This document shows positions 21,924 through 27,298 of a DNA stretch of 35,910 bases, piece by piece (the first letter of the stretch is position 1; every line of letters begins with the position of its first letter). The translations under genes were made by a program, and so were the position numbers. Source of the DNA: a virus; the IMG/VR virus record IMGVR_UViG_3300042309_000307, positions 1 through 35,910 of that record, one strand, 5' to 3'. The notes beneath the pieces are model-generated. The model was given only the letters and a program-made list of their open reading frames with translations, made no database searches and was not told the DNA's origin.

Positions 21924-22517
21924 TCATCGCCGCAGCCTGTCAAGCCCCAGATCATCTGCCGCCGCCTCCAGCGCCACCTTCAGCGCGCCCATGCCATGCT
22001 CGCGCGGCCACTGCATCTTCGCTGACCAGCTAACAACGCTCTCCCGATCACACACCACCGCCACGATCACCGCCGCCCCGATCTGCCCGCCGCACCTCGC
22101 CAGCACCCGCCGGAGCTCCATCCGCGCATGCGCCTGGCGCTCGCTGGCCGCCATCCCGACGTTGCCGAGCGCCGTCGCCTGCGTCGAGGCGTTCCAGTTC
22201 GCCGTCACCCGCGGCTCGAGCCCCGCGGCATGCCAGAGCGCCGCGATCTTCTCCGCCGCCTGCCACTGCCGCTGCGAGATCCATCCCTTCCTGACGTACC
22301 GGTCCACCGGCCGCTGCGTCACGACCCGCTGGCCGTAGGTGCGCTGCGTCCTGACCCGCCCTGCGTCGATCGAGAACAGCAGCCGCTCGCCCATCTCGAT
22401 GTCGTCGTGCTGGGCGCGCTCGGCCGGCGCCCGCATCATGTCGCCGAGCTCGATGACCTCGGCCTTCCGCTTCCGCTCGACCACGACACCCTCCATCCGA
22501 TCCCGTCGCCGTTTCAT
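21924..22517 (-). CDS. DUF6456 protein, possible late-gene regulator
   Basis: This 197-aa basic protein has an N-terminal MKRRRDRMEGVVVERKRKAE, a central DAGRVRTQRTYGQRVVTQRPVDRYVRKGWISQRQWQAAEKI, and the DUF6456 signature: LWHAAGLEPRVTANW, ASERQAHARMELRRVLAR, VIVAVVCD and ALKVALEAAADDLGL. Some DUF6456 proteins are associated with alphaproteobacterial DNA-binding regulators and phages. Here it is the last gene before the candidate late promoter, the place of antiterminators/late activators in lambdoid phages. That makes late-gene control an attractive, unproven role. The start overlaps the upstream stop as ATGA. Confidence 0.75.
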   Translation of the reverse strand: MKRRRDRMEGVVVERKRKAEVIELGDMMRAPAERAQHDDIEMGERLLFSIDAGRVRTQRTYGQRVVTQRPVDRYVRKGWISQRQWQAAEKIAALWHAAGLEPRVTANWNASTQATALGNVGMAASERQAHARMELRRVLARCGGQIGAAVIVAVVCDRESVVSWSAKMQWPREHGMGALKVALEAAADDLGLDRLRR

Positions 22518-23062
22518 CCCGCACCCGCCAGGTCAGGCGGCAGCTCGTCGCCCCGCTCCCAGTCGATGTCCGGCGCCGGCGACCTCATGGCGACCACCTC
22601 AGCCCCGGGGAACGCCTGCTTGACCGCCGAAATGGCCGCCCTGCCGGCCAGCGCCACGCGCACGAGCTCCTCGACCGTCCACACCTCGAGGTCGCGGCGG
22701 TCGCGAGCGACCACGCCGGCCTCGGCCGAGGTCCGGCAGACCGCCACCGCCCTGCCATCGTGCAGGACTTCCCAGACGTCCGGCCGGAGCGCCTCGTGGC
22801 CTGCGGCCCGGGCCGCCTGCTCGAGCACCCCGATCGCCCGCCTGACCGCCGCCCCCTGGGTCCGGATCGCCGCCAGGTCATAGGCCTCGCAGGCCCGGCA
22901 CCACGCCAGCCACTGCCTGTCCCACCTCGCCCTGAGGTCGTCCTCGACCAGCAGCCGGAGCCGGCCGACGCCCCAGGTCCGCTCGGACGCCGCCACCACC
23001 TCGTCGACGCCGTCGAGGATGGCTTTGGCTGTGGAGTAGTCGGAGGTCTTCATCGCCGCCAT
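22514..23062 (-). CDS. Helical phage protein of unknown function
   Basis: This 182-aa protein begins MAAMKTSDYSTAKAILDGVDEVV. It is helical and rich in Arg/Ala/Trp (LRARWDRQWLAWCRACEAYDLAAIR, RAIGVLEQAARAAGHE), with a C-terminal strand-rich part (VLHDGRAVAVCRTSAEAGVVAR, DLEVWTVEELVRVAL). I recognise no named family. The first ATG (23062) adjoins the large hairpin of the repeat cluster at 23065-23175; the second ATG (23053) is an alternative. Neither has a strong Shine-Dalgarno, so the hairpin may affect translation. It lies between the replication protein and the DUF6456 gene. Confidence 0.68.
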   Translation of the reverse strand: MAAMKTSDYSTAKAILDGVDEVVAASERTWGVGRLRLLVEDDLRARWDRQWLAWCRACEAYDLAAIRTQGAAVRRAIGVLEQAARAAGHEALRPDVWEVLHDGRAVAVCRTSAEAGVVARDRRDLEVWTVEELVRVALAGRAAISAVKQAFPGAEVVAMRSPAPDIDWERGDELPPDLAGAG

Positions 23063-23064
23063 CC

Positions 23065-23175
23065 AATCCGGACAGGACGGACACCCTTATAGGGTGTTGT
23101 CCGTCCGTGTCCGGATTTCTGGGTTTTGGACATTTGGACATTTTCGGATTTGTCCGAACTTGTCCGAGTTGTCCG
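23065..23175. repeat. TGTCC/GGACA repeat cluster with long hairpin, candidate replication origin
   Basis: Nine copies of the pentamer TGTCC or its complement GGACA occur here (starts at 23070, 23079, 23098, 23108, 23128, 23136, 23151, 23161, 23170). The last three are direct repeats of TTGTCCGA type at 9-10 bp spacing, iteron-like. The first four build a long imperfect inverted repeat, 23065-23087 against 23091-23117, around a TAT loop. The region is AT-richer than its surroundings and lies immediately downstream of the primase-helicase gene. A replication origin or autoregulatory site is the favoured reading. A terminator is less likely because the minus strand lacks a T run. Confidence 0.6.
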
Positions 23176-23189
23176 GACTTGCCGGCGGG

Positions 23190-25358
23190 TCAGCATAGCC
23201 ACACCCACTGGTCCCGTGACGCGGCGGCCTTGGCGTCGAAAGCCGCCTTTGCGTTCCGGTCAAAAGCGCGGCGTTTTGAGTCGCCCTCGCCGGTCGAGAT
23301 GTTCAGCCCGTAGGCTTCGGCGCGCCATTGGTCGAGGGTGACGGCGAGACGGGAGGATGTCACGCCGTCCTGCTGCACCCTGACGCCATGTTTTGCCACG
23401 GCGTTTTCAAGCGCCTGCAAAATGACAGTCAGCCCTTTCGCCCGACGACGCTCACGCGGTGCCGGTGCTGGCGCGTCCGCCGTGACCGCCACGCAGCTGG
23501 TCAGCGGCTTGCCCCGGCGGTTGGTCCCGAGGTCGATGACCTCGAGGCGGAACCCCATGTCGTCGCCGATCTCGAGCTCGCGCTGCTTGGTGACCTTGAC
23601 CAGCGAGACCTCGGCGCCCTCGCCGCGGCTGATCTCGACCTCGGTGTCGGTGGCGGCACGCAGGAGCGAGTGTCCGCGTGCGCCGCGCGCCTGGTCCTTG
23701 CCGCTGTGGTGGACGTAGCCGAGGTGCGCGCCGCAGGCCTGTCGGACCATGTCGGACGCCCGGACGAGCGCGCCCATGTCCTCGGGCGAGTTCTCGTTGC
23801 CTCCGGCCAGCGCGCGGCTGAGGGTGTCGATGACCACCAGCTTGACCGGCCTGCCGAGCTGCTCGGCGGCGACCTTGATCGCCTCGATCAACGCCGGGAC
23901 GTCCGCCTCGACGTCCAGCATGTTGATGGCGCTCGGCACGATCGCCAGCGGCAGGTCGCGGCGGTCGGCCGGCTTGACCCAGTGGTGCTTCATCCAGGCG
24001 CTGACGCGGTTGCGGATGCCCGCGACGCCCTCGAGCGCGCAGTAGACCACGCCGCCCTGGTCGACCTCCCGGCCGCGGTACGGGCGGCCGAGCGCGACGT
24101 GCATGGCGAGGTCGAGGACGCAGAACGTCTTGCCGACGTTGCTGTCTCCGTACCAGACAGACATGCCGCCCTCGACCAGCAGCCCCTCGACGAAGTCGAG
24201 CGCGGGCTCCGCGGCGGTGACCTCGTTGGCGTAGAGGAGTGGCAGGCTGGCGCGCCTTGCTCCTCCCTCCTGCCCTCCCACGCTCCCGTTCTCCTCCCCT
24301 GCCCCGTGCTGGGGCGAGGATGGCGCAGGGCGAGCGCTGGCCTGCTGGCGGGCCTCGTGGCTGGCGACCGCCTCTTCCTCGTTCCTGAGCCCCTTGATCC
24401 GGCCCTCGTGGAAGCGGCGGAGCGTGTACTCGACCTTCTGCCTGCACTCCTCCGGCCCGCGGCCCGGGCGTGAGCGCCAGTCGACCTTCCTGTCGTACTG
24501 CGGCCACACGGCCTCATAGAGCTCGTCGGCCGTCGGCGCGGCGCCGTGGGTGCCGATGAACTCGCGCAGGACCGCCGCGATCGTGGCGACCATGTAGGCC
24601 TCGCGGCCGTCGTCGAGCTGGGCCTCGAGGACGCCCAGCGAGCCGGTGCTGGCCGGCATGGCGACCGGCGGGGCCGGAGCCGCCACCGCCACCGCAGCCC
24701 GCGGCGCGGCGGCGCCGTATGGCACCGCCCTGGCGATCATGTCGGCGGTGTAGGTCGGGCCGCCCTCGGTCAGCGTGACCAGCTGCGCCACCCGGCCGGG
24801 CTTGGTAGGCCAGGCGATGCTGCCGGCCAGCCGCATGATGCGACCGGGGTTCACCACCTTGGCGTCGCCGCCGTAGGTGCCGGCGATCGCCTCGAGCTGC
24901 CCGCGCAGCGCCGCCATGTCGTCGATCGGCTCCTCGAGCCTCCACCACCAGTGCTGGCGGACATGCGGCACCGTGCCGGTGGTGACCTTGAGGGTCGGCG
25001 GCATGCGCCGCGCAAGCCGCTCCGCGCGCTCGACCGAGCCGGGCTCGTCGAGGTCGAGCCACACCGCCCAGGCGGCGATGGCGTCGCTGTCTGAGGTGCG
25101 CGCGAACGGCGCGGTGTCGGCGTGCTTGAGGGTGGCGCCGAGGTAGAGGTTGCGCCCCTCGAGGTTCCAGCCGGCGGCCTGCTCGGCGAGCTCGTCGACC
25201 TGGTCGAGGGTGAACAGCCGGGCGCCGGAGCCCTTGCCGGGCGAGATCCATGCGAGCTCGACGAGGCCGGAGGTGGCGGCGCCGAACAGCCCGAGGACGT
25301 GCCGGCGCATGGCGTCGGTGTCCGGCTGCATGTCGATCTTCATTGCCGGCGCGCTCAT
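23190..25358 (-). CDS. RepB-like primase / RepA-like helicase fusion, replication protein
   Basis: In this 722-aa protein, residues 1-215 form a RepB/archaeo-eukaryotic-type primase domain with catalytic-type AVWLDLDEPG (D102, D104) and HWWWRLEEP (136-144), then NPGRIMRLAGSIAWPTKPGR. A Pro/Ala linker and a helical middle follow. Residues 385-600 form a RecA-fold ATPase of the RepA/AAA_25 type: Walker A GDSNVGKTF (404-412), Walker B LVVIDTLSRA (507-516), HHSGKDQARGARGHSLLRAATD (550-571). The C-terminus (600-722) is helical and ends QWVWLC. One polypeptide supplies primer synthesis and unwinding. It overlaps the upstream gene as ATGA and ends next to the iteron-like cluster. Confidence 0.88.
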   Translation of the reverse strand: MSAPAMKIDMQPDTDAMRRHVLGLFGAATSGLVELAWISPGKGSGARLFTLDQVDELAEQAAGWNLEGRNLYLGATLKHADTAPFARTSDSDAIAAWAVWLDLDEPGSVERAERLARRMPPTLKVTTGTVPHVRQHWWWRLEEPIDDMAALRGQLEAIAGTYGGDAKVVNPGRIMRLAGSIAWPTKPGRVAQLVTLTEGGPTYTADMIARAVPYGAAAPRAAVAVAAPAPPVAMPASTGSLGVLEAQLDDGREAYMVATIAAVLREFIGTHGAAPTADELYEAVWPQYDRKVDWRSRPGRGPEECRQKVEYTLRRFHEGRIKGLRNEEEAVASHEARQQASARPAPSSPQHGAGEENGSVGGQEGGARRASLPLLYANEVTAAEPALDFVEGLLVEGGMSVWYGDSNVGKTFCVLDLAMHVALGRPYRGREVDQGGVVYCALEGVAGIRNRVSAWMKHHWVKPADRRDLPLAIVPSAINMLDVEADVPALIEAIKVAAEQLGRPVKLVVIDTLSRALAGGNENSPEDMGALVRASDMVRQACGAHLGYVHHSGKDQARGARGHSLLRAATDTEVEISRGEGAEVSLVKVTKQRELEIGDDMGFRLEVIDLGTNRRGKPLTSCVAVTADAPAPAPRERRRAKGLTVILQALENAVAKHGVRVQQDGVTSSRLAVTLDQWRAEAYGLNISTGEGDSKRRAFDRNAKAAFDAKAAASRDQWVWLC

Positions 25359-25744: not shown

Positions 25745-25868
25745 CGCCCCTCACCATTCAAATGAGTGCTGCGGATGCCGCCGCAGCTCGCTCACCACTC
25801 ACGCACCCAGCCGCCGGGGAGGAGAAGCGGGGGCGCTCGGCAGGTGACGCCGAGGTCGTCGATCGGCG
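25745..25868. other. 124-nt gap in the early operon with one possible 14-codon ORF
   Basis: Nothing certain is encoded here. On the minus strand a GTG at 25795-25793 opens a 14-codon frame (VSELRRHPQHSFEW) ending at 25751, just before the Shine-Dalgarno of the next gene. It could be a leader peptide or simply chance. Confidence 0.25.
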
Positions 25869-26507
25869 TCAGAACTCGGTGTCGCCGCTCGCGGACACCG
25901 GAGCGGCAGCCGCCGGCGGCGGCACCGTCCTCGAGCCCGTGGCGGGCGGCGCGACAGGCGCGGCGACGGGCTTTGGCGTCGGCGCGTCGGTCAGCGGGAG
26001 CTCGGCGGGACGCGCGACCCACGAGACGATCTGCAGGACCGGCTTGTAGTTGGTCGATTTGCCGGCGCCCGTGCTGATGGTGACCGCCTCGGTCGTCGGG
26101 CAGGCCACCACCGGCAGCTTGCCCTCGGCGGCCTCGGGCGCTGCGCTGTAGGCGTCGTGCAGCTGGTCGATCGCCTGCATCACGATCGCGGCCTGCGCGG
26201 TGATCTCGCGCACGTCGCCGCCGAGGCTCTTCGCGAGCTTGACGTGCAGCTTGACCGCGCGGCGGTGATCCTCGCTGGGCTTCGCGGGCATCGGCGCCGG
26301 GACGCGCGCGAAGCTGGTGTCGGGCGGCTGGCCGGCGGCGAACTTGGCCCAGCCGATCTCGATCTGCGCGAGGTCGAAGACCGCGGTGAAGCCGTTGGTG
26401 ACGTCGGTGACCTGGTCCTTGCCGTCGACGCGGAACCAGCGACCGGCGCGCGCGTCGAACTTGACGATGGGCGTGCGGTTGCCGCCCGTGGGGATGCCGA
26501 GTGCCAT
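25869..26507 (-). CDS. Recombination/replication-module protein, possibly ssDNA-binding
   Basis: This 212-aa protein begins MALGIPTGGNRTPIVKFDARAGRWF. The N-terminal 150 residues are globular (DVTNGFTAVFDLAQIEIGWAKFAAGQPPD, HRRAVKLHVKLAKSLGGDVREIT, SWVARPAELPL). The last about 50 residues are a disordered Pro/Ala tail ending SGDTEF, an acidic tip like that of SSB proteins that recruit partners. It stands directly downstream of the PD-(D/E)XK nuclease, where phages often encode a recombinase or ssDNA-binding partner. I cannot assign a family with certainty. Confidence 0.65.
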   Translation of the reverse strand: MALGIPTGGNRTPIVKFDARAGRWFRVDGKDQVTDVTNGFTAVFDLAQIEIGWAKFAAGQPPDTSFARVPAPMPAKPSEDHRRAVKLHVKLAKSLGGDVREITAQAAIVMQAIDQLHDAYSAAPEAAEGKLPVVACPTTEAVTISTGAGKSTNYKPVLQIVSWVARPAELPLTDAPTPKPVAAPVAPPATGSRTVPPPAAAAPVSASGDTEF

Positions 26508-26557
26508 TTGCGTGTGTCCTTTTCCGGTGTCTGGCCGGGAACCGCCGGCCGCGGTTC

Positions 26558-27298
26558 TCAGAAGCCGAAGACGCGCAGTCCGTTGGCGCGGGCCTGCGGC
26601 TCGTTCCAGTAGAAGCTGTCGTAGTTCGGGCAAAGGAGCCCGGCGAGCTCGTGCGGATCGCGCGAGAGCGCGAGGAAGCGCTCGAGGCGGCGAGCGATGT
26701 TCGCCAGCGCCGCGAGGTGGTCGCGCGCGTTCTCGAGCTCGTACACCGCCGACTTCTTCGGCGTGGCGTAGCAGAAGCGCATGCCGTAGTTGCCGAAGGC
26801 CGCGGCGTACACCGCGCCCTGGCGTGCGTGGCTGGCCTTGATCGCGCTCGGCAGCGTCGAGCTCGTCTTGAGGTCGACGATCACGCCGTGCGTGTGGAAC
26901 ACGAAGTCGGTGAAGCCGATGCACGGCACCGCCACGCCCTCGAGCGTGACCTCGACCCGGTGCTGGCGGCCATCCTCGGGGACGTCAGGCTTGCCGTATG
27001 CCGCGAGCTGCTTGAGCGCCTGCTCGAGCATGCCGGCGATCTTCAGCTTGGCGTCGGCGTCCTGGCAGAGCGCGTCGTACTTGGTGAGCGCGACCGGCAG
27101 CGCGTCGTGAAGCTTGTCGGGGTTGAGCAGCGCGTACTCGACGCCCGCCTCGACTGCCGTGCCGCAATGCGCGGCCGGGCCGACCGGCGAGCGCATCTTG
27201 AGCAGGCGCTCCATCACCCACATCGCGGGCTCGGACGCCCAGAGGTTCAGCGACGAGGCGCTGACATGCTCGATGCCGTGCTGCGCGAAGCCGCTCAT
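26558..27298 (-). CDS. PD-(D/E)XK nuclease (RecB/Cas4-like exonuclease)
   Basis: This 246-aa protein begins MSGFAQHGIEHVSASSLNLWASEPAMWV, matching the 'S.S.L' start of RecB-family nucleases. Further features are GPAAHCGTAVEAGVEYALLNP (a metal-binding G-x-x-x-E segment), GFTDFVFHTHGVIVDLKTSS (the D...D-x-K core of the PD-(D/E)XK fold) and HARQGAVYAAAFG (the Q-x-x-x-Y motif of RecB-like nucleases). It probably degrades or processes DNA ends for phage recombination together with the next gene. The start overlaps the DUF6378 gene stop as ATGA. Confidence 0.82.
   Translation of the reverse strand: MSGFAQHGIEHVSASSLNLWASEPAMWVMERLLKMRSPVGPAAHCGTAVEAGVEYALLNPDKLHDALPVALTKYDALCQDADAKLKIAGMLEQALKQLAAYGKPDVPEDGRQHRVEVTLEGVAVPCIGFTDFVFHTHGVIVDLKTSSTLPSAIKASHARQGAVYAAAFGNYGMRFCYATPKKSAVYELENARDHLAALANIARRLERFLALSRDPHELAGLLCPNYDSFYWNEPQARANGLRVFGF

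Follow-up and report, generated by a model that had tools for sequence, protein, structure and literature searches.

Short iterons placed directly downstream of the gene for an initiator-helicase, and read by the C-terminal domain of that helicase, make up the Rep origins of SaPI/PICI elements; in these origins, two iteron sets flank an AT-rich melting region, autonomous replication has been shown for SaPIs and for EcCICFT073, and cloned copies replicate plasmids (PMC7581432, PMC6092414). The pRN1 ORF904 origin is also found just downstream of its gene: it is a stem-loop, necessary for replication, with a conserved structure and a variable sequence (PMC4234260). The alpha protein of phage P4 has its primase and helicase parts in a single chain with a C-terminal domain that reads the origin, and it binds short iterons. 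A comparison involving P4 alpha is given in the article on pRN1 as well (PMC4234260). In RSF1010 the corresponding tasks are carried out by three separate proteins, the iterons (about 20 bp) being read by RepC, and RepA is not known to carry a winged helix.

We analysed a virus record of 35.9 kb (this whole stretch of DNA is called the window hereafter), which contains an SU10-type portal gene (E 4e-226), an integrase gene and other phage genes. An iteron array with a hairpin (23065..23175, minus strand) is located within the 127 bp gap which separates the stop codon of the primase-helicase gene from the start of the next gene. On the strength of comparison with relatives, and without any data on origin activity or binding, we hold it to be highly probable that this segment is the replication origin of the phage and that it is read by the C-terminal domain of the primase-helicase encoded upstream.

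Such a locus has the general design of the SaPI/PICI Rep (Pri-Rep) and SCCmec Cch2 systems, i.e. iterons immediately 3′ of an initiator-helicase gene. Reading of the iterons by the C-terminal domain is known for SaPI/PICI; for the phage family it is supported by strong covariation and a winged-helix model, without binding data. The locus departs from those systems in the type of helicase and in the carrier. The SaPI/PICI and SCCmec Cch2 helicases are AAA+ (DUF927 or D5/Primase_Cterm type), while those of the phage family are of the AAA_25 / RecA-fold RepA type. The SaPI/PICI carriers are satellites or islands without virion genes of their own, whereas the carriers of the phage family are phages with structural genes. 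ORF904 of pRN1 joins an AEP primase to a helicase and a winged helix at the C-terminus, and its origin is downstream of the gene; the phage protein resembles it in placement and predicted fold, with only a weak primase match. The ORF904 helicase, however, belongs to SF3, the element is an archaeal plasmid and there are no iterons. P4 alpha, with ori/crr, differs by its Toprim primase, its SF3 helicase and its two separated iteron regions. As for the RSF1010 RepA/RepB/RepC system (oriV, ssiA, ssiB), RepA provides the nearest solved fold, and a primase and hairpin priming sites would be further points of likeness. By analogy, the phage module would work like the SaPI/PICI, P4 alpha and pRN1 origins, yet it is not a member of any of these groups because its helicase is of another type. 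The succession of rep gene and iterons was described as unique to phage-inducible islands; the phage family appears to be a counter-example, built on an unrelated helicase fold. A search of the open-access literature yielded no description of this array, nor of any RepA-type helicase whose C-terminal winged helix reads an origin; this absence is only weak evidence.

The array and the adjacent primase-helicase

The initial annotation, made from sequence alone, reported nine TGTCC/GGACA copies and a long hairpin beside the primase-helicase gene. This was confirmed, all the copies being where it had placed them (at 23070, 23079, 23098, 23108, 23128, 23136, 23151, 23161 and 23170), and there is no second cluster in the window. 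It also judged nine pentamers to be far above chance. This holds at the background rate, which predicts 0.19 copies per 111 bp and thus a Poisson probability of 7e-13 for nine or more (over the whole window, 70 copies are observed for 63 ± 7 expected by chance). The claim has to be tempered, however: among first-order Markov genomes of matching composition, 4 out of 60 contained some pentamer present at least nine times in 111 bp. The pentamer statistic was consequently dropped as stand-alone evidence and, since the count is less extreme than it appears, the case for an origin rests on the comparison with relatives. With the extended unit CGGACA, seven copies are found in 300 bp and at most two in any other cluster.

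Read along the coding strand, the array consists of three direct copies, two inverted, two direct, the palindrome CCCTATAAGGG and two inverted copies, the last two pairing with the two direct copies ahead of the palindrome. The three direct iterons (23151..23174, minus strand; GGACA at 23170-23174, 23161-23165 and 23151-23155, with CGGACAA as extended unit) are spaced by 9-10 bp; they form the block closest to the helicase stop codon and correspond to the '+++' block of relatives. Then come two inverted iterons 8 bp apart (23128..23140, plus strand, GGACA on the plus and TGTCC on the minus strand), which lack the preceding CG (TTTGGACA) and have a counterpart in the inverted block of many relatives. 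The large hairpin (23066..23118, minus strand; inverted repeats I5 and I7) carries four iterons, two per arm (23108-23112 and 23098-23102 on one side, 23079-23083 and 23070-23074 on the other), around the palindromic centre CCCTTATAGGG (23084..23094, not assigned to a strand). Folded as DNA, it reaches -22.9 kcal/mol (z = -8.1), a value equalled by none of 200 shuffles. The annotated arrangement, four pentamers in a large hairpin and three as direct repeats 9-10 bp apart, was therefore correct.

The primase-helicase gene (23190..25358, minus strand) encodes 722 amino acids and matches AAA_25 (E 7.5e-38), phrog_906 (DNA polymerase/primase) and phrog_2850. Its description as a RepB/RepA fusion held in outline. 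The helicase core (residues 386-630; 23469..24203, minus strand) is of the RecA-fold hexameric, RSF1010 RepA type: in a Foldseek search RepA structures came at ranks 1, 4, 5 and 7, with 1nlf first and 1olo and 1g8y also among the hits. The N-terminal module (residues 1-385; 24204..25358, minus strand) is only tentatively primase-polymerase-like, the match to the PrimPol AEP domain 6zp9 being weak (E = 0.006) and the model of low confidence. The C-terminal domain (residues 641-722; 23193..23438, minus strand), our proposed iteron reader, is modelled with good confidence as a winged helix (pLDDT 89, pTM 0.77), built from one helix, a pair of strands, two further helices and a wing formed by a beta-hairpin. 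Structural matches of the model include the winged helices of ORC, Cdc6, MCM and CAP, with Z of 7-8.6; such values denote a shared fold and no kinship.

Conservation of the array among relatives

Comparison of the intergenic regions of relatives had been suggested as a check of the repeats. Relatives of the primase-helicase were drawn from IMG/VR and from bacterial genomes, 80 loci being sampled per scan, and an array was defined as at least six copies of one hexamer between 60 bp before and 240 bp after the stop codon. Sufficient downstream DNA was available for 172 distinct relatives; in 116 of them an array follows the stop codon of the RSF1010-RepA-type helicase gene, as against 1.35% of 4382 control windows from the same loci. 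The layout is conserved and the repeat word is variable; because of this conservation in relatives, the existence of the array is beyond doubt. In the common layout, a block of direct repeats precedes inverted copies, which are followed by repeats folding around a palindrome of the CCCTTTAGGG type. Within each array a single word is used throughout, and words differ between relatives: GGACA, CCGACA (GTCGG), CGTAAC, CATCAC, GAAACA, GAGACA, GCAACA, GTGACA, GTTCAA, CTACAA, GTATAA and others.

Arrays are present in cultured phages, namely Roseobacter phage CRP-811 (11 CTACAA), Rhizobium phage 16-3 (15 CGTGAC) and Idiomarinaceae phage 1N2-2 (11 GGTACA), the first and the last being complete phages. 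The fused primase module of relatives may belong to other families or be absent; the array is retained where it is of the Prim-Pol PF09250, Toprim or DnaG zinc-finger type, and also where the helicase is a separate gene without primase (L032, L047 and L057).

The centre of the palindrome in relatives is CCCTTTAGGG/CCCTATAGGG despite differing iterons, and iterons recur around it in similar orders, e.g. +++-+++|---. A palindrome of the form CCC(TTTA/TATA/TAAA)GGG is found in 76 of the 116 arrays versus 92 of 2471 control windows. In 8 out of 10 whole viral records of relatives, CCCTWWAGGG occurs exactly once per genome, at a site coinciding with the array. The A/T centre flanked by iterons measures merely 3-5 bp, and there is no long AT-rich stretch.

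No array could be detected in 56 of the 172 relatives, chiefly in a group of AT-rich marine viral contigs (L058-L082) and in distant homologues. In the marine group the helicase is 45-48% identical and the following gene begins within a few bases; given the missing array, these viruses would have to replicate from an origin at another site or of a different type. The search was extended to BFK20, Acadian and K1ind1, whose RepA-like helicases are more distant, and no array was found after the gene there either. The primase-helicase genes of BFK20 and K1ind1 (L242 and L246) are followed by gaps of 472 and 358 bp without a homogeneous hexamer array, the K1ind1 gap being apparently occupied by an unannotated small helix-turn-helix reading frame; the gene of Acadian (L243) is itself one of these more distant RepA-like primase-helicase genes.

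Co-inheritance of the repeat word and the C-terminal domain

The repeat word tracks only the last ~90 residues of the protein, i.e. the predicted winged helix. Absence of the repeats from close relatives had been put forward by the initial annotation as a result that would go against it, and such a case was indeed found: L003, whose helicase core is 98% identical to that of the window, has no TGTCC repeats. It has a different array in the same place, and a different C-terminal domain: the two proteins are nearly identical up to about residue 635 and unrelated beyond (26% identity in the C-terminus). Because array and domain both differ there, at the same position, this result strengthens the origin reading. 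The C-terminus of L003 is 46-50% identical to those of L009-L011, and the repeats of the latter are related to its own. Similarly, L005 and L010 have 99% identity in the core, 18% in the C-terminus and no array word in common.

In a dereplicated set of 82 members, a partial Mantel test controlling for core identity relates array similarity to C-terminal identity (r 0.56, 0 of 1000 permutations); controlling for the C-terminus instead leaves only a weak correlation with core identity (r 0.09, 51 of 1000 permutations). For near-sisters, defined by a core identity of 0.85 or more, the separation is complete: C-terminal identity is at least 0.60 in the 93 pairs with the same array and at most 0.57 in the 10 pairs with different arrays, without overlap, even though the latter have a mean core identity of 0.975 and N-termini 0.82-0.97 identical. 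These 10 pairs represent three independent exchanges (window/L003, L005/L009-L011 and L110-L121/L113-L131). A fourth one is provided by cultured Roseobacter phages, with cores 97-98% identical: CRP-811 and CRP-823 use CTACAA, CRP-821 and CRP-831 use GTATAA, and identity over the last 90 residues is 98-99% for phages of one array group but 71-72% across groups. The N-termini are not grouped by array (96% identity between CRP-823 and CRP-821), and aaccctttagggtt is retained in all four phages. Counting array changes on trees gave 13 on the C-terminal tree versus 17 on the core tree; this modest difference was set aside as too weak, the domain being short and one repeat class making up half of the rows.

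Comparison thus shows that C-terminal domain and iteron sequence are inherited together. Co-inheritance alone is no proof of contact, and linkage of adjacent segments might account for part of it, by transfer of one continuous stretch of DNA. Carried to its end, this argument would make the array a neutral or selfish repeat, or a transcription terminator, and the covariation a mere effect of recombination of one contiguous segment. In its favour, the C-terminus adjoins the array, so that one crossover swaps both, and the stems of terminators are resembled by GC-rich hairpins. We nevertheless regard this possibility as practically ruled out. A neutral repeat would hardly keep its layout and centre across wholly different iterons in elements ranging from alpha- to gammaproteobacterial ones, hitch-hiking cannot explain the constant C-terminal identity of 60% or more among same-array near-sisters, and a terminator scan of the region found none. 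A reader and its site are the natural explanation, because the association in near-sisters is absolute and the domain is predicted to have a winged-helix fold. Natural swaps between near-identical proteins would moreover provide data, already at hand, on the recognition code of winged helices, the sharpest case being that of the Roseobacter phages, with readers 71-72% identical and units CTACAA versus GTATAA.

Origin, operator or priming site

Three roles had been envisaged by the initial annotation: a replication origin, a single-strand initiation site for the primase or a regulator site for the next gene. The first is by far the best supported. According to the third, the primase-helicase or another phage regulator would bind the array to control the next gene or the replication operon, without any origin function. 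The array is indeed immediately upstream of the next gene (22514..23062, minus strand), which encodes a 182 aa protein of unknown function, for which Pfam, PHROGs and NCBIfam gave no hit; operators, too, typically have inverted and direct sites in clusters, and an initiator bound to iterons may also autoregulate, which is compatible with the origin reading. Against an operator, the array follows the helicase gene and not one particular downstream gene: the 182 aa gene also comes after it in close relatives (L003, L005, L009-L014 and L016), but in more distant ones it is other genes that do so. (Neighbours were annotated or directly read; clustering of the next ORF across relatives was discarded because of shadow ORFs in GC-rich DNA.) In addition, the domain with which the iteron word changes is fused to a replicative helicase, and no sigma-70-like promoter was found in the region, a result of limited weight since scans of this sort perform poorly on these GC-rich genomes. 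A purely regulatory role is therefore very improbable.

Around the gene pair, two further neighbours of the replication gene may be mentioned, a nucleotidyltransferase-like protein (25869-26924; phrog_9528, weak) and a DUF6456 protein (21924-22517).

If the segment is an origin, the following steps may be envisaged. Placement, layout and palindrome are shown by comparison to be conserved and the winged-helix fold is predicted by modelling, whereas binding, hexamer loading, melting, priming and origin activity itself are inferred. The C-terminal winged helix would bind the GGACA iterons that lie to each side of the palindrome, and subunits of the RSF1010-RepA-type helicase would thereby be assembled on the iterons flanking CCCTTATAGGG. 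Once the iterons are filled, the short A/T centre between its G/C arms may open or extrude, the helicase would be loaded onto the strands thus exposed, and synthesis would be begun at the opened palindrome by the N-terminal primase module. Since the palindrome is kept when the iterons change, an unchanged factor should act on it, and we infer that this could be the helicase core, the primase or a host protein.

This constancy leads to the second role: the hairpin could be mainly a priming site, like ssiA/ssiB of RSF1010, the true double-strand origin being elsewhere. Two facts speak for it: a single protein carries both a primase-like module and a helicase of the RepA type, and the hairpin centre stays constant when iterons change. 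However, it leaves unexplained both the additional direct iterons outside the hairpin and the joint exchange of iterons and C-terminal domain, and no other cluster of units of comparable density exists in the window, in CRP-811 or in 1N2-2. We see very little chance that it is correct as such, but single-strand initiation may describe the conserved hairpin centre as part of the origin.

GC skew, another suggested check, was not decisive. The window has its cumulative minimum at 25815, which puts it 2.7 kb away from the array; in 38 of 54 relatives, more G is found on the side that follows the array, but both sides follow gene direction; and CRP-811 shows no turning point. We consider skew uninformative as an origin test here, and weakly compatible with an origin at the array.

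Returning to the origin reading, a bolder version of it can be proposed, which in our opinion could go either way: these proteins would form a widespread family of initiators of phage replication. Their hexameric helicase, RecA-fold and RepA/DnaB-like, would load itself at its own origin by means of a C-terminal winged helix, needing neither a separate initiator nor a loader. Origin specificity would evolve by swapping the domain together with the complete set of iterons in one step, and the CCCTTTAGGG hairpin would be kept universally as the shared site for loading or priming. Self-loading of RecA-fold helicases, if true, would bear on the recruitment of DnaB-like helicases in the absence of a loader.

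Some individual loci deserve mention. L054 and L201 have TCCGCA arrays with C-terminal domains not clearly similar to the usual winged helix of the family. An island of Salmonella enterica houtenae (L245, 5027-5327) encodes a zinc-ribbon primase separately from a RepA-like helicase; six copies of GGGGGA come next, and the island could conceivably be a satellite with the same type of module. In Rhizobium phage 16-3 (L241, 3674-4030), the 15 CGTGAC copies occupy 357 bp after p101, together with a hairpin with a CTCCTTTAGGAG centre; this segment is a candidate for the origin of that classical phage.
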